A stretch of 64,000 bases of DNA. Source: Microtetraspora malaysiensis. GTDB taxonomy: Bacteria; Actinomycetota; Actinomycetes; Streptosporangiales; Streptosporangiaceae. Under the pieces are notes generated by a model. The model was not told where the DNA came from, did not search any database, and was given only the letters and a program-made list of their open reading frames with translations. Location of the stretch: contig NZ_BBYJ01000026.1 in the NCBI RefSeq assembly GCF_001528665.1, forward strand, positions 1-64,000, in the 5' to 3' direction. The position numbers and the translations under genes are program-made. Positions 7,045-30,356 of this stretch are shown here, piece after piece (position 1 is the stretch's first letter; each line of letters starts with the position of its first letter).

Positions 7045-7126
7045 CAGGGCGGCACCTCGCTGCGTTGACGCCCCACCCACGAAAAGTCCTCGCAGGCTCG
7101 GACTTTCCGCGGGGCCCGGGATTGTC

Positions 7127-7148
7127 GGCCGTAGGCTCCGCTACGGCC
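7127..7148. terminator. Short perfect hairpin downstream of ABC operon
   Basis: GGCCGTAG, six-base loop GCTCCG, CTACGGCC. It lies 70 bases beyond the stop of the last gene of the minus-strand transporter operon and may be its terminator. Confidence 0.5.
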
Positions 7149-7218
7149 TCCTCCTCCGCCTTGCGATACACCACCCTGGATCGCCGCTCCGTCCGGGCAA
7201 ACCTTGCCGGTCACGGCA

Positions 7219-9734: not shown

Positions 9735-10768
9735 CAGGTCTCCTTCAGCTTGGAGGTGGGATCGAGCACGCCGAGCAGCAGGTCGACGAGCAGGTTCACC
9801 ACCAGCACGATCGCGCCGTAGACGAGGATCACGCCCTGGGCCACCGGATAGTCCTTCTGGGTGATGGACTCCACGACCCGCAGTCCCAGGCCCGGCCAGG
9901 CGAAGACGTACTCGACGAGCACGCTCCCGGCGATCAGCGCGCCGAGCAGCAGGCCGCCCACGGTCAGCGTCGCGGTGAGCGTGTTGGGCAGGACGTGCCG
10001 GAAGTACAGCCGGGCGGCGGGCAGCCGCTTGGCCCGGGCCAGCCGGACGTAGTCCATGCCCAGTTCACGTAGGGTCTCCACCCGGGAGATACGGGCGATC
10101 ATCGCGGTCGGCGAGATGGCCAGGGAGAGGATCGGCAGGACGTAGGACACGGGTCCCGCCTTGCCCGCGGGAGGGAACCAGCGGAGTCCGATCGCGAACA
10201 CGGTGACCAGGGCGATCGAGTAGAGGAACTCGGGCACGGCGATGGCCGCGCCGGTCGCCGAGGTGAAGGTCACCTCGGTGCCCCTGTTGCGGCCGTTCTC
10301 GGTGCGGATCGCGGCCCACATGCCGAGCGGTACGGCCACGAGCAGGGCCGCGGCGGTCGCGAGCAGGGCGAGCCCGACGGTGTTGGGGAGCCGGGAGGCG
10401 ATGATCTCCCGGACCGGCTCCCCGCTGAGGAACGACGTGCCGAAGTCCCCGCGGAACACGTTGCCCACATAGGACAGGAGCTGGGACAGGATCGGCTCGT
10501 CCAGCCCGAGCGCCGCACGCCTGGCGGCGACCAGTTCGACCGGCGCGGCCGGGCCGAGCGAGGCGCGTACGGGGTCGCCCGGGATCAGGTGCATCATCGC
10601 GAAGGACGCGACGAGCAGCACGGCCAGGGAGACGACGAACCGGACGACGCGCCGCAGCACGAACCCGCCACGGACCCGGCCGAGTGCCCGGCCGGCGAGC
10701 CTCCGCCGACCGGCCCGCCCGCCCTCGGCGGACGGACCGGCGGCGGACGGGCGCAGAGACTCCGCCAT
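9734..10768 (-). CDS. Peptide ABC transporter permease (DppB-like)
   Basis: 344 residues. After a basic, Arg/Gly/Ala-rich N-terminus of about 35 residues comes the typical DppB start (VVRFVVSLAVLLVASFAMMHLIPGDPVRASLG), then six predicted membrane segments and the EAA loop (YVRLARAKRLPAARLYFRHVL trimmed here). It directly follows the binding-protein gene (1 bp between stop and start) and precedes the fusion gene. The N-terminal basic extension is longer than usual, so a start further in is possible. Confidence 0.9.
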   Translation of the reverse strand: MAESLRPSAAGPSAEGGRAGRRRLAGRALGRVRGGFVLRRVVRFVVSLAVLLVASFAMMHLIPGDPVRASLGPAAPVELVAARRAALGLDEPILSQLLSYVGNVFRGDFGTSFLSGEPVREIIASRLPNTVGLALLATAAALLVAVPLGMWAAIRTENGRNRGTEVTFTSATGAAIAVPEFLYSIALVTVFAIGLRWFPPAGKAGPVSYVLPILSLAISPTAMIARISRVETLRELGMDYVRLARAKRLPAARLYFRHVLPNTLTATLTVGGLLLGALIAGSVLVEYVFAWPGLGLRVVESITQKDYPVAQGVILVYGAIVLVVNLLVDLLLGVLDPTSKLKET

Positions 10769-12355: not shown

Positions 12356-12388
12356 CGGGGCTCCTGGAAGCTGGGGAGATGCCCCACA

Positions 12389-12407
12389 TTCGCCGGTTCC
12401 GGGCGAA
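12389..12407. promoter_or_regulatory. Inverted repeat upstream of binding-protein gene
   Basis: TTCGCC and GGCGAA arms with a 7-base spacer, about 35 bases upstream of the ABC binding-protein start and just downstream of the pucR-type gene. A related TTCG/CGAA pair follows. Candidate operator for the PucR regulator; weak evidence. Confidence 0.35.
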
Positions 12408-12449
12408 CCTTCTTCGTTGCTCCGGACGAAAAGCGGGTGATCTCTCGTG

Positions 12450-14069
12450 CTAACCGCCGAAGATGCGCATCTGAAGCATCACCGCCAGCCGCGCCTCGGG
12501 ATCGGCCAGGTCCAGCCCGCTGATCTGGACCAGCCGCTTGAGCCGGTACCGGAAGGTGTTGGCGTGCACGTGGATCTTGGCCGACGCGGCGTTCACGTCG
12601 CCGAAGGCGTCCAGGTACGCCCGCAGGGTGCTGACCAGCTCACTGCCGTGCCGGGCGTCGTGCTCCAGAAGCCGCTCGTAGGGGCCGGTCGGCGTCTGCT
12701 CCTCGGCCTGGACCAGGTCCGAGAGCTGGAGCAGCAGCGATTCGAAATGCACGCCGGTGTAGCCGGCGACCACGCCGGACGCCTCACGGGCGCGCAACAC
12801 CCGCAGGGCCCGGTCGGCGTCGGCCCGGGATCGCGCCACCTCGGCCAGGTTGCGCGCCATGCGCCCGACGCCGATGTTGGCCGCGTGCCGGGGACCGACC
12901 CGGGCGAGGAAGCTTTCCGCGACCCGTACGGCCCTGGCCTCCTCCTCGCCGCCCGCGTGCAGGGGCAGCACGGCGTACGCCACCGAGCCGACCAGCGCCG
13001 CGGCGGCCTTGGGATGGATGGCGCCGACGTGCAGGGCGAGCGCGTCGCAGAACCGCTGCCGGTCGCTCTCCCGGCGGGCCGCGTCGGCGTCGGGGCCGTC
13101 GCTGAGCTGGGCGGCGAGCACGCACAGGCGCTCGCTGGCCACGCCGAGCCGGCCCGCGGCCTCGGCGGCGTCCCCGCCGCCCGCCAGCACCGTGGACAGC
13201 AGGTCGGCGCGCAGCCGTCGCCGGGTGTCGGCCCCGGCCCGCTGGCGCAGCAACTGCAGGGCGACGATCTTGGCGGCGTCGGCGAGCGCCTGCCGGCGCT
13301 GCCCGCTCAGCGGCTCGCGCACCACCGCCCAGATGGAGCCGAGAATCTCGTCCCCGGAGCGCACGGCGACCGCGGCCCGCGCGATGGCCTCGTCGTTGAG
13401 TTCGATGTAGATCGGCTCGCCGCTCTGGTAGAGCTGCCGGAAGAACCCGCGCTCCTCCAGCATCCGCCGGTAGCGTTCCGGCACCTGGCGGCCGAGCACG
13501 GTCTCGATCCGCCCCGCGTCGGCCTCGTCCTGCCGCCCCGAGTACGCCAGCACGCGGGAGGACCGGTCCTCGATGGTGATCGGCGCGTCCAGCAGCGCGC
13601 ACACGGCGTTGGCCAGCGCGAACAGGTCGTCGAGCGGAGTGTCGTTCCCCGGTTCCGCGAGGTCGCCCTCGGCCAGCAGGGCGCGCAGCAGCGCCGCCAC
13701 CTGCGCCCAGGAGGCGGCCCGGGTGAGCCCCAGCACCGCCACCCCGGTCTCGCGGACCTTCGCGTGGACGCGGCCGTCCACGTCCACCGGCTGCTTGACG
13801 ACGACGCCCGCCGCCGGGCCCGCCGCGTCGAGCAGGGCGCATATCTGCTCGGCGCGATCGACCCCGACGGCGAGCACGATGCTCCCGGCGGGCAGGAGCG
13901 GCTCGTCGAGCGGATCGTAGATGTGGACTCCGGTGACCTCGGCGTCGAGGAGGTCACCCTCCGCGGCGGCAACGTCCAGGACGGTGCTGCCGAGGTCCTC
14001 CAGGATGCGGCGCAGGCTCGCGCGGGGCCGATCACTCATCCGCTCACGATAGTGAACATAAACCGACAT
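12450..14069 (-). CDS. PucR/CdaR family transcriptional regulator
   Basis: 539 residues. N-terminal PucR-type sensing region (about 15-150), a central GGDEF-like/GAF-like part, and a C-terminal helix-turn-helix of the PucR_HTH type (AKIHVHANTFRYRLKRL, residues about 490-515). The start ATG 14069 shares one base with the stop of the preceding hydrolase (TAATG), suggesting translational coupling; ATG 14039 is an alternative giving 529 residues. PucR proteins usually sense a nitrogen or amino-acid metabolite and activate nearby catabolic genes; here the target is likely this peptide-uptake block (inference). Confidence 0.87.
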   Translation of the reverse strand: MSVYVHYRERMSDRPRASLRRILEDLGSTVLDVAAAEGDLLDAEVTGVHIYDPLDEPLLPAGSIVLAVGVDRAEQICALLDAAGPAAGVVVKQPVDVDGRVHAKVRETGVAVLGLTRAASWAQVAALLRALLAEGDLAEPGNDTPLDDLFALANAVCALLDAPITIEDRSSRVLAYSGRQDEADAGRIETVLGRQVPERYRRMLEERGFFRQLYQSGEPIYIELNDEAIARAAVAVRSGDEILGSIWAVVREPLSGQRRQALADAAKIVALQLLRQRAGADTRRRLRADLLSTVLAGGGDAAEAAGRLGVASERLCVLAAQLSDGPDADAARRESDRQRFCDALALHVGAIHPKAAAALVGSVAYAVLPLHAGGEEEARAVRVAESFLARVGPRHAANIGVGRMARNLAEVARSRADADRALRVLRAREASGVVAGYTGVHFESLLLQLSDLVQAEEQTPTGPYERLLEHDARHGSELVSTLRAYLDAFGDVNAASAKIHVHANTFRYRLKRLVQISGLDLADPEARLAVMLQMRIFGG

Positions 14070-14941
14070 TATTCGCGGAGGTGCTCAATTGCCATGCGGG
14101 CCGCCCGGCCGATCGCCGCGTCCGCCTGGGGCAGCCGGAACCCGAGCGAGTCCGTCCGGAGGTAAACCGCGGCGGCGTAGCGCCGCCCGTCCGGAAATTC
14201 CACGACACCGGCCTCGTTGCGCACGCCCGGGAGGGTGCCGGTCTTGCCGGAGACCTTCACCTCGTCGCCGAACCCGGAGGAGAGGCGGTGCGGCCAGACC
14301 TGGTTGCCCATGATCTTCCGTACCTCCGCGCACGCCTCCGCCGGACCGGCCTCGTCCCGCCAGATCTTGCTCAGCAGGCTCGTGGTCTCACGAGGTGTCC
14401 CCGAGGTCGTCCGCTCCGGGTCGAGCACCGACAGCGCCCGCATCCGCTCCTCGGACACACCGGCGAGATCCTCCTCGGAGACGTTCTCGACGGAGAGGCC
14501 GAGCTCGGTCACCATGCTGCCCAGCAGTTCGGCGCAGCCGCCGATCAGGCGAGTACGCCCGAGGCCGAGCCCGCGCAGCGTGGCGTGCAGGTTGTCCAGC
14601 CCGACCCGCCGCAGCAGCACGTCGGTGGCCGCGTTGTCGCTCATGGTCATCATGAAGTGGGCCAGGTCGCGCAAGGTCAGCGAGACGTCGTCGGCGCACC
14701 CGGAGGTGCCGATGCCTCCGTCCTTGTCGGCCGTCGTGACGGTGAGCCGCTCGGTGCGATCCAGGGTCCCCGCCGCCGCCTGCCTGGCGTACTCCAGCAC
14801 TACAGGGATCTTGAACACCGAGGCGAGCACGACCGGTTCGTCGGGGTTGAGTCCGATTTCGGCGGAGCCGTCGACTTCGCGGACGTGGACGAAGCCCTCC
14901 ACGTCCGCGTCGTCGAACACCTCCTTCAGGAGGTCACACAC
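14069..14941 (-). CDS. Class A beta-lactamase-like serine hydrolase, no signal peptide
   Basis: 290 residues. The three active-site motifs of penicillin-recognising enzymes are visible: SVFK (SxxK, about residues 41-44), SDN (MSDNAA) and KTG (VSGKTGT). The omega-loop Glu-x-x-Leu-Asn that carries the class A general base is not recognisable, so true beta-lactamase activity is doubtful; an aminopeptidase or esterase role is possible. No signal peptide is seen, so it should act in the cytosol. GTG start at 14941 overlaps the previous gene by 8 bp. Confidence 0.78.
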   Translation of the reverse strand: MCDLLKEVFDDADVEGFVHVREVDGSAEIGLNPDEPVVLASVFKIPVVLEYARQAAAGTLDRTERLTVTTADKDGGIGTSGCADDVSLTLRDLAHFMMTMSDNAATDVLLRRVGLDNLHATLRGLGLGRTRLIGGCAELLGSMVTELGLSVENVSEEDLAGVSEERMRALSVLDPERTTSGTPRETTSLLSKIWRDEAGPAEACAEVRKIMGNQVWPHRLSSGFGDEVKVSGKTGTLPGVRNEAGVVEFPDGRRYAAAVYLRTDSLGFRLPQADAAIGRAARMAIEHLRE

Positions 14942-16274
14942 GGCGCAGCGCCCGTCCGTTGTGGACGTAGGCGGCCCGGCCGTCCTCGACCACGAAGGTG
15001 AGGGTCTCGTGCCTGCCCTCCTCCGGCTCGACCGCGATGAAGGAGTGATCGCGGTAGTGGACGAACCGGGTGGTGGTCTCCGGGGCCCCCGTGCTCGCCA
15101 TGAACTCGCCGGGGATCAACGTGACATCCAGGCCGCCGTCCGCCCCGGCCACCTCGTACGAGAGCGCCGGGCCGTCGTACCTGCCGGCGTAGGGCGTGGG
15201 ATCCACGGCCTGCGGCGTCGCGGGCAGAGCGGGCAGGGCGGGCACCGGGAGCCCGGCGACCTCGCGGATCAGCGGCAGGGCCACGTCGGTGAACAGCCCC
15301 ATGAAGCCGGGGCCGTTGACGGTCATCGCGATCGCGAAGTCCGCGCCGGGCGCGACCCGCCAGAACGTGCTCTGCCCGATCGTCCCGCCGTCGTGACCGA
15401 AGACCTCACCACCCCAGTCGAACAGCTCGAACCCGAGCCCCCAACGGCCGGCGAGCAGCCCGGAGACGCCGGGCACGTCGACCTGCCCGGTCCGCATGGC
15501 GGCGACCGCCTCCTCCGACAGCAGGCGGGTGCCGTCCTCGGCCACTCCCCCGGCCATGAACATCCGGCCGAAGCGGACCAGCTCGCGCGGGGCCAGGCAC
15601 ATCGTGGAGCCGGCCGGAGCGTTGGAGCGCGGCAACTGCCACGAGGGGAAGACGGTGCCCTCGGGACCGACATGTCCGGCCGACGCCCGGAAGAGGATCG
15701 CCTCCTCGGCCAGGAGCGCCCAGTTCGTGGCGCCGAGCGGCTTCAGCAGGCGCTCGCGCATCGCCTCCTCCCACGTGGTGCCCCGCACCCGCGCGACCAG
15801 CGCGCCCAGGACGCAGTAGCCCGCGTTGCAGTACGAGAACAGGGCGCCCGGCTCGTGCACGTGACCGGCGCCGTGCAGGAAGGCCACGAACTTGTCCAGG
15901 CAGTCGTCGCCGCGCCCGGTGTCCTCGAACAGGTCGCCGTCGAAGCCGCCCGTGTGGGTGAGCAGGTGCCGGACGGTGATGCTCTTCTCCGCGCCGTCGG
16001 CGACGGCGAACTCGGGCAGGTAGTCACGGACCGGCCGGTCCAGCTCGACCAGCCCTTCGTCCACGAGCTGCATGACCAGGGCGGCGGTCCAGACCTTGGT
16101 GGTGGAGCCGACCTGGAAGACGCTGTCGGGCGTGGCCTCCACGCCGGTGTTCCGGTTCACCACCCCGGTGGCGACCTCGACGAGCTCGCCGCCCGTCCAG
16201 ACGGCGAGCGCGGCGCCGGGCACTCCGTGCCGGCCGGCCGCCTCGTCGAAACGCTTCTGCAGATCCTCACGCAT
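14934..16274 (-). CDS. Class C beta-lactamase-type serine hydrolase
   Basis: 446 residues, beta-lactamase/DD-peptidase fold. S57-T-T-K60 (SxxK), Y148-C-N150 (YxN) and HDGGT as third motif. A C-terminal domain of about 100 residues (from about 340) resembles the small beta-barrel attached to D-aminopeptidase/esterase members. No N-terminal signal sequence (MREDLQKRFDEAAG), so it is likely cytosolic. It is a paralogue of the next gene upstream (same DTGRGDDC and SYCN segments), indicating tandem duplication and divergence. Likely substrate is an ester or peptide with a D-residue (inference). Confidence 0.85.
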   Translation of the reverse strand: MREDLQKRFDEAAGRHGVPGAALAVWTGGELVEVATGVVNRNTGVEATPDSVFQVGSTTKVWTAALVMQLVDEGLVELDRPVRDYLPEFAVADGAEKSITVRHLLTHTGGFDGDLFEDTGRGDDCLDKFVAFLHGAGHVHEPGALFSYCNAGYCVLGALVARVRGTTWEEAMRERLLKPLGATNWALLAEEAILFRASAGHVGPEGTVFPSWQLPRSNAPAGSTMCLAPRELVRFGRMFMAGGVAEDGTRLLSEEAVAAMRTGQVDVPGVSGLLAGRWGLGFELFDWGGEVFGHDGGTIGQSTFWRVAPGADFAIAMTVNGPGFMGLFTDVALPLIREVAGLPVPALPALPATPQAVDPTPYAGRYDGPALSYEVAGADGGLDVTLIPGEFMASTGAPETTTRFVHYRDHSFIAVEPEEGRHETLTFVVEDGRAAYVHNGRALRRV

Positions 16275-16283
16275 GCCGGCTCC

Positions 16284-17609
16284 TCAGGCGGTCTTGGGCG
16301 TGGCGCGCACGCCGAGGTGGACGTAACGCGAACCGTCGGGGAGCTCGTAGAAGACCGCCGAGGTCCACTGCGGCTCCCCTTCGGGACGGCCGACGAAGGT
16401 GGTGTCGTCCACCGGGACGAGGTCGAACTCCATGGGCGGCTGCAGCCCGGCGAGGGCGCCGGTGGCCTCGCCGTACAGCGAGAGCCGTCCGTCGCGGGCC
16501 GTGAGCGTCATCCGGACGCCGGCCCGCTCGTACACGCCGGCGTACCGCTCGACGTCGGTCTCGTACGGCTCGGCCGGGGGTCCGAGCACGGGCGGCACGG
16601 CCAGGCCGAGCAGCTCGTCGAACAGCTCGGTGGCCAGGGCGTGATGGAAGGCGGCGGTGTGGCCGCCGTTGGCCAGCACGCACACCACCGTCTCGGTCTC
16701 GGGGACCATCCAGAGCATGGCGGCCTGGCCGATGGTGTTGCCTCCGTGGGAGACGATACGGCGGCCCTGCCACTCGTCCAGGATCCAGCCGAGGCCCCAC
16801 TGCTTGCCGATCGTGTGTGGGTCGGGGATGTCCACCTGGGGCTCCCACATCGCCTGCGGGTCGGCGAGCAGCTCGGTGCCGAGGTGCGCCCGCGCGAAGG
16901 CGACGACGTCCGCGGGCCGGGCGCAGATCAGCCCCGCCGGGCCGCAGGACCGCATCAGGCCCCAGGCGGGGGCGGGCCGGCCCTGCATGTGGCCCATCGC
17001 GCCGCGGAAGCGCAGCACGTCCTCCGGCAGGGTCCAGGTGTGGGTCAGGCCCAGCGGCTCGATGATCTGCTCGCGCAGCGCGGCGTCCCAGACCTTGCCC
17101 GTGAGGCGCTCGACAACGCGCCCGGCGATGATGAACCCGGAGTTGCAGTACGACTGGGTGGCGCCGAGCGGATGGTTCTGCGCCAGGTCGGCGCACGCCT
17201 GCACGTACTTCTCCACGCAGTCGTCACCGCGGCCCGTGTCGAGGAACAGGTCGCCGTCGATGCCGGAGGTGTGCGTGAGCAGGTGCCGGATCGTGACGGT
17301 CTTGGTCACCTCGGGGTCGGCGACCCGGAACTCCGGCAGCACCTCGGCGACCGGGGTCTCGAGCGTCAGCTCGCCCCGCTCGATGAGGAGCATGATCTGC
17401 GTGGCGGTCCACACCTTGGTGACCGAGCCGATCTGGAAGAGGGAGTCGGTGGTCACCTCCACCCCGGTGTCCGTGTTGAGCACGCCCGCCGCGAACTCGT
17501 GCACCTCACCCTCGTGCAGGAAGGCCAGGTTCGCGCCGGGAACCTCGAACTGGGTGATCAGCTCGGCGAGGCGGGAGTGCCAGCGACCGGGATCCACTGC
17601 TGCAGCCAC
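16284..17609 (-). CDS. Class C beta-lactamase-type serine hydrolase (paralogue)
   Basis: 441 residues from GTG 17609 (AAAGGA about 8 bases upstream; GTG 17597 is an alternative). S62-V-T-K65, Y154-C-N156 and HGGN as third motif. Extended C-terminal domain as in its neighbour; the two share long blocks, including RHLLTHT, DTGRGDDC and SYCN. The 5' end overlaps the S9 peptidase gene by about 50 bp in another frame, so expression is probably coupled. No signal peptide. Confidence 0.83.
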   Translation of the reverse strand: MAAAVDPGRWHSRLAELITQFEVPGANLAFLHEGEVHEFAAGVLNTDTGVEVTTDSLFQIGSVTKVWTATQIMLLIERGELTLETPVAEVLPEFRVADPEVTKTVTIRHLLTHTSGIDGDLFLDTGRGDDCVEKYVQACADLAQNHPLGATQSYCNSGFIIAGRVVERLTGKVWDAALREQIIEPLGLTHTWTLPEDVLRFRGAMGHMQGRPAPAWGLMRSCGPAGLICARPADVVAFARAHLGTELLADPQAMWEPQVDIPDPHTIGKQWGLGWILDEWQGRRIVSHGGNTIGQAAMLWMVPETETVVCVLANGGHTAAFHHALATELFDELLGLAVPPVLGPPAEPYETDVERYAGVYERAGVRMTLTARDGRLSLYGEATGALAGLQPPMEFDLVPVDDTTFVGRPEGEPQWTSAVFYELPDGSRYVHLGVRATPKTA

Positions 17610-19456
17610 TCGACGATCCTTTCGTTGTAGTCCACCCGGTGGGACGGGCGGCCGTTGAGGATGAACAGATGTGAGCCGCCCGGATAGCGGACCAGCCGGA
17701 CCGGCACGCCCTGCTCGCGCAGGGCGGCGAACCACTGCTCGGCCTGGCCGACCGGGCACCGGTCGTCGGCGTCGCCGTGCAGGAGCAGCGTGGGCGTGGT
17801 CACCTGGGCGACGTGCGTCATCGGTGACTGCGCGGTGATGTCGCCCCGGCACTCGTACGCCTTGAGAAGGTGCCCCGCGTCCGAGGTGCCGGCCATGCTG
17901 ACCAGGTCGCTGACGCACCCGCCGGGGATGGCCGCCTTGAACCGGCCGGTCTGCGTCGACAGCCAGCAGGACATGTAGCCGCCGTAGCTGTAGCCGGTGA
18001 CCGCGAGCCGTTCCGGGTCAGCGGTCCCCTCGTCGACCAGCTCGTCGATCGGGTTCAGGAAGTCGCCGGTGTCGGCGATGCCCCAGGCGCCCACCGCGGC
18101 CGTGTAGAACGCCTCGCCGTACCCGTCGCTGGCCCGCGGGTTCATGGTGAGCACGGTCCAGCCGCGCGCGGCGAGCACCTGGTGGTAGAGGTGCGCCCCG
18201 TCGAACACCGGCGCCCAGGCGTTGTGCGGGCCGCCGTGCGCGTCCAGCAGGAGCGGCCCCGGCCCGGTGAGCGTCTCGTCCCGCAGCACGAACCCCTCCA
18301 CGAGGGTCCCGTCGGGCGCGGTGAAGGTACGGCGCTTCGGCGTGAACAGTTCGACGTCGTGGAGCGCGTAGTCGGTGAGCCGTGTCGTGGCCGTGTCGTC
18401 CCGGCCGTCGCCCGGGAGCGCGTCGAGGTCGGCGAGGTAGACGTCACCCGCGCTGTACGGCGTCGACGCGACATAGGCGATCCGGCCGCCCGCCGCGCTG
18501 ACGCCCGAGACCACCTGGTCACCACCGATGACCTTCTCGCCGGGGGCGCGATAGACGTGGGTGCAGCCGCCGTCCCGGGCGCAGAAGATCAGCTCGTCGC
18601 CCGCCTGCTGGGGGACGGCGCCCGGATAGCCGGGGGCGCCCACCATGATGTTGCGGTCGAGCCCCGTCTTGATCTCCACGAGGCTGTCCGGGCCGAGCTC
18701 GAACATGCGGGTGTGGCCCACCGGGTCGCCGGTGTTCCCGGCGACGAGCAGCCGCTCGCCCAGCCACCAGGCCCCGGCGCAGATCACGTCGGCGCCGGTG
18801 AGCCGCTCGGGCTCGCCGCCGGAGGCGTCCACCGCGTAGACGGCGCCGCCGGCGACCAGGTCGCGGTCGGCCTCCATGTTCGCGGTGAACGCGAGCCGCC
18901 GGCCGTCCGGCGACCAGGAGGGCTCGCCCGCGAAGAAGTCGCCCGAGGTGACCTGCCGGGTGTCCCCCGTCTCGACCTCCACCACGAAGACGTGCAGGGT
19001 GAGGCCGCGCAGCAGGCCGGTGCCGTCGGCCTTGTATTCCAGGCTGTCGGCCACGACCGGGGCGTGCGGGTCGACCTCGCCGCACGGCGCGCTGTACGCG
19101 ATGGAGCGCCCGTCGGGCGACCAGACCGCGGGGCCCGCGCCGAGGGACGCGGCGGTGAGGACGCGGGGCTCGCCCCCCTCCATGGGGAGCAGGTGAAGCT
19201 GCGGCTTCCCGTCCACGGGGCGCAGGAAGGCGAGCGAGCGCCCGTCGGGCGACCAGCGCGGGGAGGAGTCGTGCGGGCCGCCCGTCAGGCGCCGTGGCGC
19301 GCCACCGGCAGCGACGAGCCAGATCTCGGAGCGGTTCTCATCGGACTCCCGGTCGGCGGTCGTGACCGTGTACGCCACGGTGTTCCCGTCCGGGCGCAGC
19401 CGGGGGTCTCCCGGAACCGCGATTCGATAAATGTCGCTGAGGGAGAGGCGAGACAT
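17558..19456 (-). CDS. S9 family (acylaminoacyl-peptidase-type) serine peptidase
   Basis: 632 residues: N-terminal seven-bladed beta-propeller built from WSPDGR-type TolB-like repeats (about 1-370), then an alpha/beta hydrolase domain. Catalytic triad S490 in GYSYGG, D564 in HGDADDR, H596 in GGSH. Such enzymes remove residues from short or N-blocked peptides in the cytosol; no signal peptide. First gene of the minus-strand hydrolase-transporter block. A TAGGGT hexamer lies 7 bases before the ATG, so the transcript may be leaderless. Confidence 0.88.
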   Translation of the reverse strand: MSRLSLSDIYRIAVPGDPRLRPDGNTVAYTVTTADRESDENRSEIWLVAAGGAPRRLTGGPHDSSPRWSPDGRSLAFLRPVDGKPQLHLLPMEGGEPRVLTAASLGAGPAVWSPDGRSIAYSAPCGEVDPHAPVVADSLEYKADGTGLLRGLTLHVFVVEVETGDTRQVTSGDFFAGEPSWSPDGRRLAFTANMEADRDLVAGGAVYAVDASGGEPERLTGADVICAGAWWLGERLLVAGNTGDPVGHTRMFELGPDSLVEIKTGLDRNIMVGAPGYPGAVPQQAGDELIFCARDGGCTHVYRAPGEKVIGGDQVVSGVSAAGGRIAYVASTPYSAGDVYLADLDALPGDGRDDTATTRLTDYALHDVELFTPKRRTFTAPDGTLVEGFVLRDETLTGPGPLLLDAHGGPHNAWAPVFDGAHLYHQVLAARGWTVLTMNPRASDGYGEAFYTAAVGAWGIADTGDFLNPIDELVDEGTADPERLAVTGYSYGGYMSCWLSTQTGRFKAAIPGGCVSDLVSMAGTSDAGHLLKAYECRGDITAQSPMTHVAQVTTPTLLLHGDADDRCPVGQAEQWFAALREQGVPVRLVRYPGGSHLFILNGRPSHRVDYNERIVEWLQQWIPVAGTPASPS

Positions 19457-19601: not shown

Positions 19602-19886
19602 TCAGGCGGGGGCCGCGGGCCGTTCCGGGGGTGCGCCCGTCCGGTCGTGGGACTGGAGCTCGGTGAGGTGGGCGGCGATGGCGTCGATCGTCGGGTGGTC
19701 CCAGGCCAGGGTCGGCTCGACCAGCAGGCCGGTGGCCTCTTCGACATCGACGCACAGGCTGAGCGCGTGGATCGATTCCAGCCCGTAGGTGCGGAGCTTG
19801 ACCCGGGGATCGATCTCGGCGGGTGGCAGCTGGAGGTAGTGAGCTATCCGCTCGGTAAGCCATCGGTGCACGTCACGGTCGGGCAC
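19602..19886 (-). CDS. Acyl carrier protein
   Basis: 94 residues, PP-binding fold. Phosphopantetheine attachment site S38 in GLESIHAL. C-terminal tail is Pro/Ala-rich. GTG start at 19886 with CAGGAGAG upstream. 30 bp downstream of the acyl-AMP ligase gene, in one transcription unit with it and the reductase. Probably receives the acyl group from the ligase. Confidence 0.85.
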   Translation of the reverse strand: MPDRDVHRWLTERIAHYLQLPPAEIDPRVKLRTYGLESIHALSLCVDVEEATGLLVEPTLAWDHPTIDAIAAHLTELQSHDRTGAPPERPAAPA

Positions 19887-19916
19887 GGTCTCTCCTGGGT
19901 CGGATTTCTGACACGT

Positions 19917-21575
19917 TCATGAGCGGACCCGCAGCAGATCGTGCACCGCGGGTTCCAACTCGGCGTGCAGCGGCGTGAGCCTCCCGCCGCGGAAGAGCTC
20001 CCGCATGTGCCGGCGGCGCAGCTTGCCGCTGGTGGTCTGCCGCACTCCTCCACGGGCTACCAGCATCAGACTGAGCGGGATGCCGAACTCTCTCGTCACC
20101 AGGTCCATGACCCGGTCGGCCGTTTCGCTGAGGATCGCCGGATCTCCGTGGCGGACCTCCTGGATCAGGACGACGTGTTCCCGGCCGTCCGGCCGGCGGA
20201 TGCCGAAGGCGGCGCTCCGTCCTCCGGCGGAGTTCGCCCGGGAGGCCGCCTCCTCCAGGTCCTGGGGGTAGAGATTGCGGCCGTTGACGATGATGACGTC
20301 CTTGATCCGCCCGGTCACGTAGAGCTGTCCGTCCAGGAGAAAGCCCAGGTCACCGGTGCGCAGCCAGCGGCCCCCACCCGCGCGGAAGGTGGCACGGGTC
20401 TCCTCGGGACGGCCACGGTAGCCGAGGGCCACGCTCGGGCCCGCCACCCAGATCTCCCCGATCCCGCCGTCGGGCACGGGGGCGCAACTCTCCGGGTCGA
20501 CGATCCGCAGGTCGAGCCCGGCGACCGGACCGCACGCCACCAGGGGAACGCCGTCGGGGTCGGCGATCGCCTGATGCCGTTCCAGCGCGGAGGCGGCGAA
20601 CCTGCGGACCGTCACGCCCTGCCCTCGCGGCACGCAGGCGACCATCAGGGTGCACTCGGCCAAGCCGTAACCGGGATTCCAGGTGGTCGGGCGGAAGCCG
20701 GCGGGCCCGAATCTGCGCTCGAAGTCGGCGAGCGTGGCGGCCTTGATCGGCTCGGCTCCGCTGAGGGCCATGCCCAACGTGGACAGGTCCAGCCCGGCAA
20801 GCTGCTCATCGGTGATCCTGCGGGTGCACCAGGAGTAGCCGAAATCCGGGGACACGGTCCAGTCCGCGCCGTACCGGCTGATCAGCTCCAGCCAGCGCAC
20901 CGGCCGCGCGACGAACGCGTTCGGCGACATGAACACCAGGTCGGCACCCGCGTAGAGCGCGTGCAGCTGGAGGCCGACCAAGCCCATGTCGTGGTAGTGG
21001 GGCAGCCAGCCGGCCAGCCGCCGTGGCGGTTCCGCACCCGCCAGGGACAGGAACGACTCAAGGTTGTGCAGCAGGTTGCCGTGTGACACCTCGACTCCGC
21101 GCGGATCGCTCGTCGAGCCGGAGGTGTACTGCAGGTACGCGATGGTGTCGGGGCGCAGATCCGGCGAGGTCCAGGCGCCGGGATCGGCGGAGGGGGCGAC
21201 GGCGCGGGCCGAGAGGCCGGACAGCTGGGACACGTGTGCGGGATCGGTCAGGATCAGGTGCGCCCCCGAGTCCCGCAACAGCGCCGTAACGCGGCTCGAG
21301 TGCGGTGCGCCCACGTCCGGCAAAGGCGCGGGGATCGCCGGGACCCGGGCGTAGAGGCAGCCGAGGAACGCGACGGTGAAGTCGAGCCCGGCCGGATAGA
21401 GCAGCAGCGCCGGCCGGTCGGTCATGCCGCGTTCGGTGAGCCACACGGCGACGGCGCGGGCCCGCCGATCCAGTTCGGCGAACGTGAGCCGGGCCGGCTC
21501 CCCGTTGTCCTGCACGAAGACCAGTTCCCGGTCGCCGCTGAGGCGGCCCCGTACCTGCGTGACGAAATCGGTCAT
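19917..21575 (-). CDS. Fatty acyl-AMP ligase (FAAL-type adenylating enzyme)
   Basis: 552 residues. ATP-binding P-loop YTSGSTSDPRGVEVSH, FAAL-typical WLPHYHDMGLVG, core YGLAECTLM, and GRIKDVIIVNGRNLYPQD near the C-terminal hinge (here the hinge keeps GRNL as in FAALs rather than the fatty acyl-CoA ligase pattern). Expected to activate a fatty acid with ATP and load it on the neighbouring carrier protein. Start ATG overlaps the stop of the reductase gene by 4 bp. Confidence 0.88.
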   Translation of the reverse strand: MTDFVTQVRGRLSGDRELVFVQDNGEPARLTFAELDRRARAVAVWLTERGMTDRPALLLYPAGLDFTVAFLGCLYARVPAIPAPLPDVGAPHSSRVTALLRDSGAHLILTDPAHVSQLSGLSARAVAPSADPGAWTSPDLRPDTIAYLQYTSGSTSDPRGVEVSHGNLLHNLESFLSLAGAEPPRRLAGWLPHYHDMGLVGLQLHALYAGADLVFMSPNAFVARPVRWLELISRYGADWTVSPDFGYSWCTRRITDEQLAGLDLSTLGMALSGAEPIKAATLADFERRFGPAGFRPTTWNPGYGLAECTLMVACVPRGQGVTVRRFAASALERHQAIADPDGVPLVACGPVAGLDLRIVDPESCAPVPDGGIGEIWVAGPSVALGYRGRPEETRATFRAGGGRWLRTGDLGFLLDGQLYVTGRIKDVIIVNGRNLYPQDLEEAASRANSAGGRSAAFGIRRPDGREHVVLIQEVRHGDPAILSETADRVMDLVTREFGIPLSLMLVARGGVRQTTSGKLRRRHMRELFRGGRLTPLHAELEPAVHDLLRVRS

Positions 21576-22633
21576 TCCGGTAACCCCTCACGGACGTACC
21601 ACGAGACCAACCGGTCGAGGACCGCGGGAGTGACGGCCGGCGGGGCCGCCCGGTCGCGCCACTCGAAGTCGTAGTGATGCCGGAAGTAGGTCGCGGTGTA
21701 CTTGGCTCGCATGTTGACCACCGCCTCGAAGCGGTTGAACGGCTCGTCCCGGATCTGCTCGGGTGTGGCCGGGACCAGCTCGATCGGCAGCCGAGCGTTG
21801 ATCACCTCGAACAGGTCCCGGACGGGCACGGTCTCCCCGTTCACCACATGGAAGACCGGACGATCGAGATCCGCGGCGGCGAGCGGAAGCAGCCGGGAGA
21901 CCGTCGTGTCGATGGGCGTCAGATGGAGGTTGGCGTCCGGATGGCACGGCAGGCGGACCCGTTCACCGGGCGTGCGCCGGGCGAAGAAGGCCATCACGCG
22001 GAGGAAGTCGTACAGGCCGTAGTCGGTCAGCGCGCGGCCGGTCTGGGAGTGGCCGACCATCACGCCCAACCGCGCCGTCAGGACGGCACCCTCACGGACG
22101 GACCGCGACCGGGCCAGCGCGATCTCCGCCTCGCGTTTGGAGTATTCGTAGAAATTCCGGAATCGGTCCGGCGGCGCGTGCGCGGGCCAGTTCTCGGGTA
22201 CCCGCCCCTCGGTGCCGAGCCCGCACTGGTAGGCCGTTCCGATGAAGATGTAGCGCGACCCCGGACGGGCCCGCCGCTCGTAGGTGGCCAGAACGTTCGC
22301 GGAACCCGCCACGTTCACGTTCATGAGCTCCTCCTCGCGGCGCGGGAAGAACGTGACGAGCGCGGCGGTGTGCCAGTAGGCGCAGGGCTCGGCGAAGACC
22401 TCGGCCACCGGCAGGCCGAGGTCCGGCTCGTTCAACGCCAGCCTCCGCACCCGGAGCCGGCCCGCCAGGGACTCCTCGAAGCCGAGGCAGCGCAGCGCGT
22501 CCGCGACCCGGCGGCGCACCACCTCCGCGGAGGCGCGGGCCAGGGCGATCACTTCGTCGCCCCGGGCCAGCAGGGCGCCGATCAGATGGGAACCCACGAA
22601 TCCGTTGGCTCCGTCGACCACCTGAACATTCAC
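21572..22633 (-). CDS. Extended SDR / thioester-reductase-like NAD(P)-dependent protein
   Basis: 353 residues from GTG 22633 (GGAAGG seven bases upstream). Rossmann motif GANGFVGSHLIGALL near residues 8-22, active-site YxxxK in YEYSK, and the thioester-reductase-like arrangement with an IGTAYQCG strand (where many have the catalytic Ser/Thr). With an acyl-AMP ligase and a carrier protein next door it may reduce the carrier-bound acyl thioester to an aldehyde or alcohol. A plain epimerase-like SDR is the alternative. Confidence 0.78.
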   Translation of the reverse strand: MNVQVVDGANGFVGSHLIGALLARGDEVIALARASAEVVRRRVADALRCLGFEESLAGRLRVRRLALNEPDLGLPVAEVFAEPCAYWHTAALVTFFPRREEELMNVNVAGSANVLATYERRARPGSRYIFIGTAYQCGLGTEGRVPENWPAHAPPDRFRNFYEYSKREAEIALARSRSVREGAVLTARLGVMVGHSQTGRALTDYGLYDFLRVMAFFARRTPGERVRLPCHPDANLHLTPIDTTVSRLLPLAAADLDRPVFHVVNGETVPVRDLFEVINARLPIELVPATPEQIRDEPFNRFEAVVNMRAKYTATYFRHHYDFEWRDRAAPPAVTPAVLDRLVSWYVREGLPE

Positions 22634-22706
22634 CAAGGAACCTTCCCACAAGCGGCAACAAACAGTAAAGTAACCGGCACTCAACGTAGTCGAAGCGGGA
22701 GGCTCC

Positions 22707-23270
22707 ATGCTCAACGACCTGCAGCTGCGCAAGATGGCCCATCTCTTCGCACTCCTGGACGTGGACGACGACGGAGCCATCGACAAGATGGACTACTCCG
22801 CCTCGGCCGACCGGCTGGTGAACGCGTTCGGGTTCGCGCCGGGCTCGCCCGAGTCGCAGCGGGTCCGGGCCCGGTACGCGCGTCTGTGGGACGAGGTGAC
22901 GCTTCCCATGGACACCAACGGCGACGAGCGGGTCGATCTGACCGAGTTCACGGCCGGATTCGACCGGTTCGTCACACAGCCCGAGGAGGGCTACCTCCGG
23001 CATATCGCGCCGGTCGCCGACGCCTTCTACGACCTGATGGACACCGACGGAGACGGGCGGATCACCCGGACCGAGTATCTCCGCATGGCCGGAAGCGCGT
23101 TCCGCATGTCGGAGCCGAACAGCCTCTCCGCGTTCGAGCGCCTCGACCTGGACGGCAACGGCTCACTGAGCAGGCAGGAGCTGCACAGGGCGAACGAGCA
23201 GTTCTTCCGCAGCCCTGACGCGCAGGCCCCGGGCAACTGGCTGTTCGGCCCGCTCCCGCCGCGGATCTGA
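22707..23270 (+). CDS. EF-hand calcium-binding protein (calerythrin-like)
   Basis: 187 residues with four EF-hand loops: DVDDDGAIDKMDY, DTNGDERVDLTEF, DTDGDGRITRTEY and DLDGNGSLSRQEL. All have the Asp at position 1 and acidic residue at position 12 except the first, where position 12 is Asp. ATG 22707 is preceded by GGGAGG. It diverges from the acyl-activation cluster with only 73 bp between the starts, so the promoters overlap. A soluble calcium buffer or sensor; the target is unknown. Confidence 0.92.
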   Translation: MLNDLQLRKMAHLFALLDVDDDGAIDKMDYSASADRLVNAFGFAPGSPESQRVRARYARLWDEVTLPMDTNGDERVDLTEFTAGFDRFVTQPEEGYLRHIAPVADAFYDLMDTDGDGRITRTEYLRMAGSAFRMSEPNSLSAFERLDLDGNGSLSRQELHRANEQFFRSPDAQAPGNWLFGPLPPRI

Positions 23271-23324: not shown

Positions 23325-23849
23325 CTACCGGGTGGGCCTGGTTGTCTTCCTCGCTTCGGAGGCCGGGGAAGGCGGCAGGATGCCGACACCGGTGCGGGCC
23401 TCGAAGACGAGCTGGGTCTGGGTCTGGCGTACGCCGGGATGCACGGTGATTCGTTCGAGGATCAGGTCGCGCAGGTCCTGCGGGGTGGCGACGGCGGCGT
23501 GCACGAGGAAGTCGTCGTCGCCGCTGACGTGGAAGACCGTCAGGACGCCGGGTGTCTCAACCAGCCGGTCAAAGAGGGTGTGGACCGGGTCGCGGTAGTG
23601 GCCGCCGAGCCGGACCCGGATGATCGCGTGCAGCGGGCGGCCCAGCGCGGCGGTGTCGACGTGCGCGTGGATAGCGGTGATCACACCGGACGCGCGCAGC
23701 GCGCGCACGCGATAGGCGCACGTCGACTCGGCGACCCCGACCTGAGCCGCGAGTGCGGCGTTGGTCAGGCGGCCGTCCCGCGACAAGGCCGCCAGGATCT
23801 TCAGGTCGGTGCCGTCGAGCTGCGGATCCTGCGGTACACGTCGCGACAT
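23325..23849 (-). CDS. Lrp/AsnC family transcriptional regulator
   Basis: 174 residues from ATG 23849 (GGAGGG upstream). N-terminal HTH: LDGTDLKILAALSRDGR then LAAQVGVAESTCAYRVRAL; C-terminal RAM/AsnC ligand domain ending in LVFEARTGVG. Divergent from a Cys/Met-metabolism enzyme, which it probably controls in response to an amino acid; the 99-bp intergenic region is AT-rich relative to the rest. Confidence 0.9.
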   Translation of the reverse strand: MSRRVPQDPQLDGTDLKILAALSRDGRLTNAALAAQVGVAESTCAYRVRALRASGVITAIHAHVDTAALGRPLHAIIRVRLGGHYRDPVHTLFDRLVETPGVLTVFHVSGDDDFLVHAAVATPQDLRDLILERITVHPGVRQTQTQLVFEARTGVGILPPSPASEARKTTRPTR

Positions 23850-23948
23850 CGACCCTCCAATTACGGAATCCGCACCAACTATCCAAAAACGGACCTTCTT
23901 CCGCAACATATCTTGAAGGTGATTGGCGATTTCGCCGACAGTCGGGCC

Positions 23949-25172
23949 ATGACATCGCGTTCTCTTCATCCCGACACCGTCGCCGTCCACGCCGGGCGCG
24001 AGGACCTGACGGACCTCGGGGTGCATGCGCCTCCGATCGACCTCTCCTCGACCAACCCGTTGCCGGACATCGAGACCGGAGGGTCCGCCTACGAGACGTT
24101 GGCCTCCGGCGGATATCCGGAGGGAACGGCGGTCTACGCGCGGCTGTGGAACCCGACGGTGGCGCGGTTTGAGACGGGGTTGGCGCGATTGGAGCACGCG
24201 GAGGCGGCGGTCGCCTTCTCGTCCGGCATGGCGGCGCTGACGGCGGCGGTGCTGGCGACGACGCGGGAGACCGGGCGACGCCATGTCGTGGCGGTCCGCC
24301 CGCTGTACGGCGGCACCGATCACCTGCTGGCCTCCGACCTGCTGGGCGTCGAGACGACGTTCTGCGAGGGCACGAGCGCGGCGGTGGCCGCGGCGATCCG
24401 CCGGGACACCGCGCTGGTCGTGCTGGAGACCCCCGCCAACCCCACGCTCGACCTGGTCGACATTCGTTCCGTCGTGATGGCGGCGGACGGGGTGCCGGTG
24501 CTGGTGGACAACACGTTCGCGACGCCCGTGCTGCAGAACCCGCTCGAGTTCGGCGCCGCGATGGTGCTGCACAGCGCGACCAAGTACCTGGGCGGGCACG
24601 GCGACGTGGTGGCGGGTGTGATCGCGTGTGACGAGGAGCGCGCCGCGGCCCTGCGCCGGGTGCGCGCGATCACGGGTGCGCTGCTCCATCCGCTGGGCGC
24701 CTACCTGCTGCATCGCGGACTGGCGACGTTGCCGGTGCGGGTACGCACCCAGCAGGCGAACGCGCGCGCCGTCGCCGCCTGGCTCGCCGACCACCCGGAC
24801 GTGGCTCGCCTCTACTACCCCACCGACGACCATCCGCTGATCGGGCGGCAGATGGACGGCACCGGCGCGATGCTGTCGATCGAGTTGCGCGGCGGCTACG
24901 ACCAGGCCGCCCGCCTCACCTCAGCCGTCCAGGTGTTCACGCACGCGGTGTCACTGGGCGGCGTCGACTCCCTGATCCAGCACCCGGCGGCGCTCACCCA
25001 CCGCCCGGTGGCCCCCGAGGCCCGCCCCGACGCGGCCCTGGTCCGCCTGTCCATCGGCCTGGAGAACCCTACGGATCTCATCACCGACCTGGACCGCGCG
25101 CTGTCCGTGAACGGCCACGCGCACCCGCCCCTTACGGCGATCAGGTCCCGGATCCCGGATCTTCAGACCTGA
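23949..25172 (+). CDS. Cys/Met metabolism PLP-dependent enzyme (cystathionine gamma-synthase-like)
   Basis: 407 residues. PLP lysine K212 in HSATKYLGGHGD; the other cofactor contacts (FSSGMAALT, ETPANPT, DNTFATP) are present. The active-site loop reads LYGGT: methionine gamma-lyases normally have Cys in the position of the second Gly, so a gamma-synthase or beta/gamma-lyase of another specificity is favoured. Start ATG 23949; only a weak ribosome site and a small GGCGA-TT-TCGCC hairpin precede it. Divergent from the Lrp gene. Confidence 0.85.
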   Translation: MTSRSLHPDTVAVHAGREDLTDLGVHAPPIDLSSTNPLPDIETGGSAYETLASGGYPEGTAVYARLWNPTVARFETGLARLEHAEAAVAFSSGMAALTAAVLATTRETGRRHVVAVRPLYGGTDHLLASDLLGVETTFCEGTSAAVAAAIRRDTALVVLETPANPTLDLVDIRSVVMAADGVPVLVDNTFATPVLQNPLEFGAAMVLHSATKYLGGHGDVVAGVIACDEERAAALRRVRAITGALLHPLGAYLLHRGLATLPVRVRTQQANARAVAAWLADHPDVARLYYPTDDHPLIGRQMDGTGAMLSIELRGGYDQAARLTSAVQVFTHAVSLGGVDSLIQHPAALTHRPVAPEARPDAALVRLSIGLENPTDLITDLDRALSVNGHAHPPLTAIRSRIPDLQT

Positions 25173-27687: not shown

Positions 27688-30003
27688 TTACTCGTGCGCG
27701 TGCTCGTACGCGGCCGCCGCGCCGTGCTCGGGCACGTCGCTGCCGCGCACCGCCGCGTACGGGGCGTCCTTGCCCTTGGCCCGCGGGTCGGCGACGAGCT
27801 CGGCGCACTGGCCGGCGCCGGTGACCCCGTTCGCCACTCCGGCGTCGGACGGCGCGGGGGTGTTGCCGCTGCAGGCGAGGCCACCGCGCACGGAGGTGCC
27901 GGTGACGACGGGGGCGTCCACGGTGGTGTTGCCGGTCAGCCCGGCCGAGCCGCGCAGGTCGGAGCCCGCGACGATGAGCTGGCCGGTGGTGCCGTGGATC
28001 GCGACGGAGCCGTGCACGGTCGCCTTGAGCAGGTGGATCTCCGCGGCGCCGGTCGCGTTCAGCGATCCGCTGATCGTGCCGCCCTTGACGACCAGGGACG
28101 CGCCGGAGCCGACGGTCACCCCGCCGTTGATCCGGGCGTCGTCGAGGCAGGTGACGCCCGACCGCACGGACAGCGCGCCGTTCCGGGTGCCGGTGATCGT
28201 GGTGGTGCACTCGGGCGGCGCGGCGAGGGTGGTCACGGTGAAGCTCTTCGGCGTCCCGTAGTTGCCGCTGGGGTCGATCGACCGGTACTCGACGGTGTGC
28301 CCGCCGCGCGGCAGCTTGCCGTAGGTGAGGCTGTCGATGACCGTGCCGTTCTCGGTGAACAGCCACGGCTCGTCGGCGGACGTCGGCCAGCCGAAGTAGT
28401 TGAACCAGCCGTCGCCGTCCACGCGGGACTCGCGCACCACGTACCCGTCCCGGTCGTCCTCGCCGGTGAGACGCATGGTGAACGGGCCGTTGAACACGTA
28501 GCTCTCGCCGGACTTCACCAGCGGCTCCGACAGCTCGTACGCGGTGGCGGGCAGGGTGTTGTCCACCGTCCAGGTGCGCGTGTCGCCGCCCGCCGAGGCG
28601 GTCAGCGTGTGGTTGCCGGAGGTCAGGTCGAGCGCGGACAGGTCAAGGACCGGGCCGGTCTCACCGAGGGCGGTGCCGTCCAGCGCCCAGGTGACCGCGG
28701 GCACGCTGTCGTCGGGGTGGGTGGTCTCGACGTACACGACCTCGTCGTGGGCCACGGCGCGCTCGGTGGGGGTGGACGAGCGCAGTCCCGGCGTGACCTG
28801 GGCGGGCGTGGTGGTCGAGGCGGTGTCCACCGTCCAGGTGCGGGTCGCGGTGAGCGCGCCGCCGCGGATCGCGGGGTCGCGGACGAAGTCCGTCGGGTCG
28901 GTCACGGTCGCCTTGACCGTGTGCGTGCCGGGCGACAGCTTCAGGGTGCGCAGGTCGAGCGCGGCGCCGCGGGCGGACACGGCGGCGCCGTCCACGCTCC
29001 ACGTGGTGGTCAGCGCGTGGCTGTTGGGGTGCAGCGGCTCCACCCAGAGGACCCGGTCGGCGCCGACCGCGGCCGTGGTGGGCGTGCTGTCCTGGATGAG
29101 GCTGGTCTTGGCGGAGATCCGCTGGGTCATCACCTCGCGGCCGACCTGGTCGTAGTAGTAGCCCAGTGTCCGCATGATCGAGTGCTCGCTCGGGCGCCAG
29201 ACCTTGCTGCTGTAGTACAGGCCGCCCTCGTACCTGCCGATGGCGCCGCCGGCCTCGCTCGGCTCGCCGAGCCAGCGCCACCACTTCTTCTGCTGGTCCC
29301 GGATCTGCTGCTCGGTGAGCAGGGTGTGGTGCGCCGAGCTGGGCTCGCCGCCGGAGTACGGGCCGCCGTCGACGCCGCGGCTGTAGTACGTGTACTCGTC
29401 CTGCAGGCCGCCGAGCGAGTGGCCGATCTCGTGCGGCGCGATGAGGGCGGACATCGAGTTGTGCCCGGAGGAGGTGGCGTAGGCGCCGCCCGCTCCGCCG
29501 TACGTCCCGCTGTTGGCGAGCGCGAGGATCTGCCGGTTGGCGCTGCTCGTCCCAGCCACCATGTTGGCGTACGTGTTGGCCGCGGTGTTGCTCATGGTGA
29601 TCAGCCGCTGCACGCTGGAGGCGCTGCATCCGCCCCAGAAGGCCATGCTCAGCGGGGTGTTCTTCTTGCCGGAGGCCAGGTCGGGGTCGCAGCCGATGCC
29701 GGACTCGCCGGACACGATGTCCACCCGGTAGACGTTGAAGTAGTTCCGGTACGACTTGTACGGCTCGATGGACCACATCACGTTGAGCTGCTGGTCGGTG
29801 TCGGCCGCGAACGTGGACAGCTCGTTGTTCGTGTAGCCGTCGCCCATGATGATCAAGTTGAACCGCTTGGCGGGGTCACCGGTGACCTGGATCGGGACCA
29901 CGGTGGCGCTGCCGACGTCGGCGGCCTGCGCGGGAGGGATGGTGATCAGAGCGGCGGCCAGCGGGACCGCCGCCAGGGCCGCGAACGGCCGTCGTGCACG
30001 CAT
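27688..30003 (-). CDS. Secreted M64 family (IgA-peptidase-type) zinc metallopeptidase
   Basis: 771 residues from ATG 30003 (GGAGG upstream); an upstream extension of the frame is rejected. Sec signal peptide: basic MRARR, hydrophobic core, cleavage after AQA (about residue 28). The M64 domain follows with zinc motif H191-E-I-G-H195 and GGLQDEY. Then two copies of an Ig-like module, each with a DGxxxxxxGxxLDLxxL...GxHTL/V pattern, a bacterial Ig-like part, and a C-terminal beta-helix-like region of short Gly/Ser/Thr repeats ending near SGNTPAP. Acts outside the cell on proteins. Tandem hairpins follow it. Confidence 0.9.
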   Translation of the reverse strand: MRARRPFAALAAVPLAAALITIPPAQAADVGSATVVPIQVTGDPAKRFNLIIMGDGYTNNELSTFAADTDQQLNVMWSIEPYKSYRNYFNVYRVDIVSGESGIGCDPDLASGKKNTPLSMAFWGGCSASSVQRLITMSNTAANTYANMVAGTSSANRQILALANSGTYGGAGGAYATSSGHNSMSALIAPHEIGHSLGGLQDEYTYYSRGVDGGPYSGGEPSSAHHTLLTEQQIRDQQKKWWRWLGEPSEAGGAIGRYEGGLYYSSKVWRPSEHSIMRTLGYYYDQVGREVMTQRISAKTSLIQDSTPTTAAVGADRVLWVEPLHPNSHALTTTWSVDGAAVSARGAALDLRTLKLSPGTHTVKATVTDPTDFVRDPAIRGGALTATRTWTVDTASTTTPAQVTPGLRSSTPTERAVAHDEVVYVETTHPDDSVPAVTWALDGTALGETGPVLDLSALDLTSGNHTLTASAGGDTRTWTVDNTLPATAYELSEPLVKSGESYVFNGPFTMRLTGEDDRDGYVVRESRVDGDGWFNYFGWPTSADEPWLFTENGTVIDSLTYGKLPRGGHTVEYRSIDPSGNYGTPKSFTVTTLAAPPECTTTITGTRNGALSVRSGVTCLDDARINGGVTVGSGASLVVKGGTISGSLNATGAAEIHLLKATVHGSVAIHGTTGQLIVAGSDLRGSAGLTGNTTVDAPVVTGTSVRGGLACSGNTPAPSDAGVANGVTGAGQCAELVADPRAKGKDAPYAAVRGSDVPEHGAAAAYEHAHE

Positions 30004-30356
30004 GGGGAGGGAACCTCCAGAGCGAAGAGGGGGCGTGCCATGCACTATCGGGCTTCGCTGCTCCCCACGCACATCCCATGTCGGGATAACTCCAGATTTA
30101 TGGCTCCAGTGGGCACGGATTCGTCCCCGCCCGGCTCCCGGCCGCGTCTCCCCCGCTGACCTGGGCGAAATCCCACGCTCCGGCGCGTGCCCACCGCCCC
30201 GGCCACGTCCCGCCCGATCCGCCCGATCGCAGGAAAACCGCGCGGAACACCCGCCGCCGCCACCTCATGCTCAGCAGCGCGACACCCCATGTCACCAGAT
30301 ATCACTTGATGGATGGCTATAGTGCTCGCGTTATGGCGGCGAAAGGAGGGGCCTGA
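30004..30356. promoter_or_regulatory. 353-bp divergent promoter region between M64 peptidase and LysR gene
   Basis: Starts of the two genes face away from each other. TATAGT at 30318-30323 is a candidate -10 for the LysR gene, 33 bases before its GTG. CCCATGTC occurs twice (30075-30082 and 30286-30293), each next to an AT-rich stretch (GGATAACTCC, ACCAGATATC), a possible regulator-binding pair. No gene seen. Confidence 0.45.

Follow-up and report, generated by a model that had tools for sequence, protein, structure and literature searches.

What does a calcium-binding protein do beside enzymes that look suited to activate, carry and perhaps reduce an acyl chain? The question is raised by a 64,000-nucleotide stretch from the 8.8 Mb genome of Microtetraspora malaysiensis (contig NZ_BBYJ01000026.1, positions 1 to 64,000; hereafter the window), where genes for a thioester-reductase-like short-chain dehydrogenase/reductase (SDR), a fatty acyl-AMP ligase (FAAL) and an acyl carrier protein (ACP) face a gene for a four-EF-hand protein (the EF protein). 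These four genes are strictly conserved as a set within a small group of soil actinomycetes, and all 19 distinct loci with an ortholog of the SDR hold them in an identical divergent layout. With moderate confidence we propose that this cassette converts an acid via an acyl-ACP to an aldehyde (or alcohol), and that the chemistry is tied to calcium through the EF protein as a dedicated partner.

In the window, the minus-strand genes are transcribed in the order SDR (21572-22633, 353 aa, GTG start), FAAL (19917-21575, 552 aa) and ACP (19602-19886, 94 aa, GTG start), with an overlap of 4 bp between the first two and a spacing of 30 bp between FAAL and ACP. The EF gene (22707-23270, plus strand, 187 aa) is transcribed divergently and starts 73 bp from the SDR start. 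The SDR start was placed at GTG 22633 based on conservation among the orthologs; the longer open reading frame (ORF) beginning at TTG 22786 is not likely to mark it. Pfam and NCBIfam were concordant on the protein families, the Pfam assignments being NAD_binding_4 for the SDR (E 2.4e-21), AMP-binding for the FAAL (E 1.6e-55), PP-binding for the ACP (E 7e-12) and several EF-hand models for the EF protein (E about 1e-15). No nonribosomal peptide synthetase (NRPS) or polyketide synthase (PKS) was present among the window ORFs scanned (9734-30072). The original prediction of a tight minus-strand operon of ligase, carrier and reductase, free of polyketide or peptide synthetases and with an EF-hand gene starting 73 bp away in the opposite direction, is thus borne out.

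In order to follow the cassette through other genomes, the SDR was searched without using the EF gene as a query, and the adjacency of the EF gene is therefore an independent result. The SDR matched at E <= 1e-30 in 7/150 Streptosporangiaceae genomes, that of the window among them, and 17 loci came from scanning genome contigs, comprising 16 orthologs (nine from Streptosporangiaceae and seven from Pseudonocardiaceae, by their titles) and one relative from Bacteroidota (L033), 31% identical, which is not an ortholog and was left out of the ortholog counts. In Pseudonocardiaceae, 6/150 genomes carried an SDR ortholog, two of these being new loci. The six further loci of the Streptosporangiaceae search were already among those of the contig scan, and the 19 distinct loci are accordingly the window, 16 from the contig scan and two from Pseudonocardiaceae. 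The cassette is known from these two families, and the closest relatives of the window's copy are those of other Microtetraspora species. An earlier search of the phylum with a 7-row SDR profile matched only the window's own genome (1/296), and no plasmid-borne copies were found by tblastn at E <= 1e-20.

Orthologs of the EF gene occur in precisely the same 7/150 Streptosporangiaceae and 6/150 Pseudonocardiaceae genomes as the SDR, with 0 discordant among 300. In this profile search the Streptosporangiaceae orthologs scored at E about 1e-114 against 1e-49 for the next best match, while for Pseudonocardiaceae a threshold of 1e-42 was used, stricter than the best paralog score of 6e-38. EF-hand genes are common, being matched at E <= 1e-10 in 67/150 Streptosporangiaceae genomes, and one may therefore ask whether the EF gene is simply an unrelated neighbour. 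We give this practically no credence, as it is adjacent to the operon in 19/19 loci with varied surroundings and shares its genome distribution with the SDR in both families. The shared gene content and layout show that the neighbourhood is not due to chance, and the conservation beside the cluster in relatives, which the original prediction had named as the check on its idea, is confirmed.

To assess the limits of the unit, every ORF of 60 aa or longer in the two flanks (each up to about 10 kb) was compared across 17 loci (the window and 16 others). Outside the four genes, 526 of the 536 shared ORFs were confined to one genus, and the remaining cross-genus ORFs were 30-39% identical, the three common to four genera only 32-33%. 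Based on this, the conserved unit consists of exactly four genes, and a wider cassette with extra members was rejected. The flanks of the window's cassette are shared with M. fusca; in M. glauca and M. niveoalba the immediate neighbours differ. No NRPS, acyltransferase or ketosynthase belongs to the unit common to the genera in this comparison. The gene trees of the four proteins are broadly congruent (pairwise distance correlations of 0.87-0.93), with mean between-family tree distances of 0.56 for EF, 0.87 for SDR, 0.95 for FAAL and 1.56 for ACP, and the EF protein is thus the least diverged member.

The region between the divergent starts (22634-22706 in the window, 73 bp) is 72-84 bp long in 17/17 loci compared, and in 16/17 of them a GTANNGT motif occurs at a nearly identical offset (22665-22671 in the window). 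Motifs resembling ribosome-binding sites were observed for the SDR (CCTTCC, 22641-22646) and for the EF gene (GGGAGG, 22697-22702). The narrow range of gap lengths together with the nearly fixed motif suggests shared regulation of the EF gene and the operon, and the overlap of promoters supposed earlier takes the form of a compact, shared divergent region.

We infer from the protein families that the first step would be the adenylation of a free carboxylic acid, probably a fatty acid, by the FAAL with ATP, giving acyl-AMP, and that the acyl group would then be transferred to the dedicated ACP, on its phosphopantetheine arm. In the alignment of the 17 loci, from which all counts of invariant residues are taken, the catalytic Lys518 of the FAAL and the phosphopantetheine site Ser38 of the ACP are both invariant (17/17). 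Profile searches with the FAAL matched 7r7e-g, 3kxw, FadD23, FadD32, 3pbk and FadD28 at E 1e-140 to 1e-78, and the first CoA ligase, a 4-coumarate CoA ligase, followed at E 4e-34. The strongest match, 7r7e-g, bears only the name 'Polyketide synthase' in the Protein Data Bank (PDB), and others are named FAAL or FadD; some matches deposited under different names we take to be FAALs. The best NCBIfam relatives are also FAALs, and by sequence similarity the adenylating enzyme resembles FAALs more than it does acyl-CoA ligases. The best PDB profile match of the ACP was 2n98 (E 1.6e-21), presumably LipD of friulimicin. FAALs are described as having a plugged canonical CoA pocket and a proline-lined alternative pocket as their hallmark (PMC8460268).

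The pairing of a FAAL with a free-standing ACP is shared with LipA/LipD, which take part in lipopeptide initiation in systems of the daptomycin/friulimicin type, as outlined in PMC9113097. Unlike LipA/LipD, the cassette has no NRPS with an acyl-accepting condensation domain, either in the scanned part of the window (9734-30072) or in the cross-genus unit, and has a thioester-reductase-like SDR instead.

In the proposed pathway, the SDR would use NAD(P)H to reduce the thioester of the acyl-ACP, giving an aldehyde or perhaps an alcohol. With its NAD_binding_4 match and its Thr/Ser-Tyr-Lys site, the protein belongs to the extended SDRs; T133, Y162 and K166 are invariant (17/17) and are taken to be the active-site triad from knowledge of the family. 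The best PDB profile match was the reductase domain of MxaA (4u7w, E 1.4e-10), and the reductase (R) domain of AusA was also close. Based on these similarities, the SDR appears to be a divergent member near the R domains of thioester reductases, and thioester reduction is plausible.

Several observations weigh against this part of the proposal. The score against the NCBIfam model TIGR01746 (Thioester-redct; E 8.5e-22, 77.9 bits) is below the curated cut-off of 213.35, and the SDR is therefore classed as thioester-reductase-like only. The AlphaFold2 (AF2) model is weak, with a predicted local distance difference test (pLDDT) score of 61.9, and for this reason its fold matches carry little weight; the top match was a PKS thioreductase domain (8v1x), followed by many epimerases and dehydratases. 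A related SDR also occurs without the partner genes. In L033, a metagenome-assembled genome of Prolixibacteraceae, a stand-alone SDR (9663-10766, plus strand) matches the cassette SDR profile at E 2.6e-53, a better match than the non-cassette SDRs observed in actinobacteria; no FAAL, ACP or EF gene was found nearby, its neighbours being a penicillin-binding protein, CN_hydrolase, PAD_porph, DUF3332 and DUF4837, and this locus was rejected as a cassette. In a class-wide search, 11/394 genomes matched the SDR at E <= 1e-14 with no match between E about 1e-213 and 1e-25, and the eight weaker relatives had no FAAL, ACP or EF match within about 1.5 kb on each side.

The divergent score, the epimerases and dehydratases matched by the weak model below its top hit, and the partnerless relative in L033 would all agree with an SDR that is no thioester reductase, acting instead as an oxidoreductase or epimerase on the ACP-bound chain (for example as a ketoreductase) or on an unrelated small molecule, with the acyl-ACP used otherwise. 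Among proteins of known structure, however, its closest relatives by sequence are the R domains of MxaA and AusA, the top fold match is itself a thioreductase domain, and the conserved unit has no ketosynthase or transferase to supply or take the chain. We therefore regard an SDR that is no thioester reductase as unlikely but not negligible.

Taken together, FAAL, ACP and SDR would amount to a carboxylic acid reductase (CAR) split into three proteins. CARs carry an adenylation, a thiolation and a reductase domain (A-T-R) in one chain. The cassette would match this in its three activities (adenylation, carrier, thioester reduction) and in the sequence in which they are used, and differs in having three separate proteins, a FAAL-type adenylation enzyme and a fixed EF-hand partner. 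A single A-T-R polypeptide was not observed, the three ORFs being separate at each of the 19 loci, that of the window included, and the cassette would thus work like a CAR at most. In the biosynthesis of tambjamine, a fatty acid is put on an ACP by an enzyme of the ANL type (TamA), followed by thioester reduction (TamH), according to the account in PMC9594044. The proposed order of steps is alike; TamA/TamH are ACP-ANL and transaminase-thioester reductase fusions that take the aldehyde on to an amine, whereas the cassette has no transaminase and no fusions.

The EF protein would tie this chemistry to calcium, most likely by Ca2+-dependent binding of the product or of the acyl machinery. Its four loops (residues 18-29, 69-80, 112-123 and 147-158) have Asp, Asn or Glu at positions 1, 3, 5 and 12 in 17/17 sequences, with Asp at position 12 of loop 1 and mostly Glu at position 6 of loop 2, and the Ca2+ ligands of calexcitin-, sarcoplasmic calcium-binding protein (SCP)- and CabD-type loops are thus retained. 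The AF2 model has a pLDDT of 91.5 and predicts a compact four-EF-hand fold (Z 24.0 to 17 against 7pjd, 2ccm, 2scp and 3akb/3aka). The fold matches extend over about residues 1-185 and include juvenile hormone diol kinase (7pjd, Z 24.0), calexcitin (Z about 23), the sarcoplasmic protein 2scp (Z 22.3), coelenterazine-binding protein (2hps, Z 20.2) and 3akb from Streptomyces coelicolor (Z 18.1), and the okadaic-acid-binding protein is also matched over full length; absence of a family from the secondary list of matches carries no meaning. Calexcitin, the diol kinase, SCP and CabD share the full-length fold with the EF protein (Z 24.0 to 16.6), and the diol kinase alignments also have a C-terminal GN-x-x-FG tail in common with it, while sequence identity to these proteins is 17-30% and the link to an acyl-reduction operon is particular to the cassette.

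The EF protein is thus predicted to have the calexcitin/SCP/coelenterazine-binding-protein fold, a fold that includes binders of lipophilic ligands. OABP2, CBP, berovin and calexcitin are presented in a review (PMC5754374) as one fold with small-molecule binding. Based on the modelled likeness to coelenterazine- and okadaic-acid-binding carriers (Z 20.2 and 16.6), which is one of fold only and implies no light emission, the EF protein may be their bacterial counterpart, holding the lipophilic aldehyde or a derivative of it and releasing or using it when calcium rises. We put this forward tentatively and consider it rather doubtful, since a common fold is no proof of function and plain Ca2+ buffers have it too. 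Examples of positions fixed in the cassette EF clade and rare in 31 paralogs are H12, L13, S33, V38, T65, V89, H99, M111, N163 and R168, and these would fit a specific ligand or partner. With a fold common to binders and buffers and with such clade-fixed positions, calcium coupling of the cassette, judged from the gene linkage, is likely and carriage of the product is the bold reading.

An EF protein that senses or buffers Ca2+ and so controls the enzymes or the producing cell, in the manner of CabC or calerythrin, would overlap with our proposal and deny only the holding of a lipophilic ligand, as the enzymes would still make the aldehyde. Plain buffers such as calerythrin and the SCPs have the same fold, and calerythrin and CabB are described as buffers or transporters and CabC as a developmental regulator in a review (PMC10574481). 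A mere buffer, however, needs no fixed enzyme neighbour, yet the enzymes adjoin it in 19/19 loci while tens of paralogs lie elsewhere, and clade-fixed positions beyond the loops (H12, S33, T65, H99, N163 and R168) fit a specific partner or ligand. We judge a ligand-free sensor or buffer to be quite possible without being probable.

The strict linkage of acyl-loading genes to the EF gene, together with an invariant lysine in the first helix of the EF protein (K9, 17/17), would also agree with acylation of the EF protein itself by an acyl group from FAAL and ACP, in which case the SDR would edit the chain and the system would be a calcium-acyl switch in bacteria. We find this highly improbable, because the conserved unit has no acyltransferase, the EF protein lacks an N-terminal Gly2, K9 is also present in 90% of the 31 EF paralogs and the reductase would be left without a clear role. 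With no acyltransferase in the unit, the 'acyl modification' of the original prediction finds no direct support, and reduction to an aldehyde suits the parts better.

The paralogs were also used to ask how general the link is. For this, 40 EF-paralog loci (all 17 non-window matches of one search and the top 23 non-cassette matches of the Streptosporangiaceae search) were set against 40 controls drawn from these genomes, of which 32 were displaced by 31 kb and eight were placed at arbitrary points in mid-chromosome; for paralogs on short contigs there was no displaced control, and four test stretches at contig ends were shorter than 18 kb. FAAL-profile matches were found in 7/40 paralog loci and 7/40 controls, ACP matches in 1/40 and 0/40, and SDR matches in 0/40 of both. 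A general link between EF-hand proteins and adenylation enzymes was therefore rejected, and the absence of any general tie of the paralogs to acyl chemistry counts against the proposed role of the EF protein. Five of the seven FAAL-profile matches (L091, L093, L095, L097 and L098, near 7100-10830) come from what looks like one Streptomyces-type arrangement, a distant EF-hand gene tail-to-tail with an AMP-binding (CoA-ligase-like) gene. In addition, EF paralogs 37-39% identical to the window's protein adjoin a molybdopterin oxidoreductase in 4/7 paralog loci in which the neighbour was scanned, from two families (L083 6278-9277, L084 8727-11744, L102 6280-9278 and L104 6170-9275). The EF gene is 3' of the oxidoreductase gene on the same strand in three of the four, perhaps another fixed pair of EF-hand protein and enzyme.

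Around the cassette, the window encodes an Lrp/AsnC-type regulator of 502 aa (23325-24833, minus strand), the helix-turn-helix and ligand domains of which match only residues 339-478. Its long N-terminal part is probably real, as identity to the M. fusca protein is 86.5% over the whole of 494 aa. On the other side are oligopeptide-type ABC transport genes, a PucR-like regulator, at least two beta-lactamase-family hydrolases and an S9 peptidase (9734-19456, minus strand), a cluster that also adjoins the cassette in M. fusca. An IgA peptidase M64 domain is present in a protein of 794 aa encoded at 27688-30072 (minus strand).

No paper pairing an EF-hand protein with a FAAL, an ACP and a thioester reductase was found in our searches of open-licence PubMed Central papers, and the gene pairing hints at a calcium-linked lipid or aldehyde system not described before. 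In its treatment of actinomycete EF-hand proteins, the review cited above credits only CabC with a demonstrated developmental role and leaves those of CabD and CabE unclear (PMC10574481). As the enzymatic partners of the cassette EF clade are fixed in 19/19 loci, the function of this clade can be tested with four genes. The three enzymes would be a CAR that occurs naturally in split form. Product binding by the EF protein would mean a bacterial branch of ligand carriers within the calexcitin/photoprotein fold, and if the protein acts as a carrier as suggested here, the cassette would represent a Ca2+-triggered small-molecule system in bacteria.

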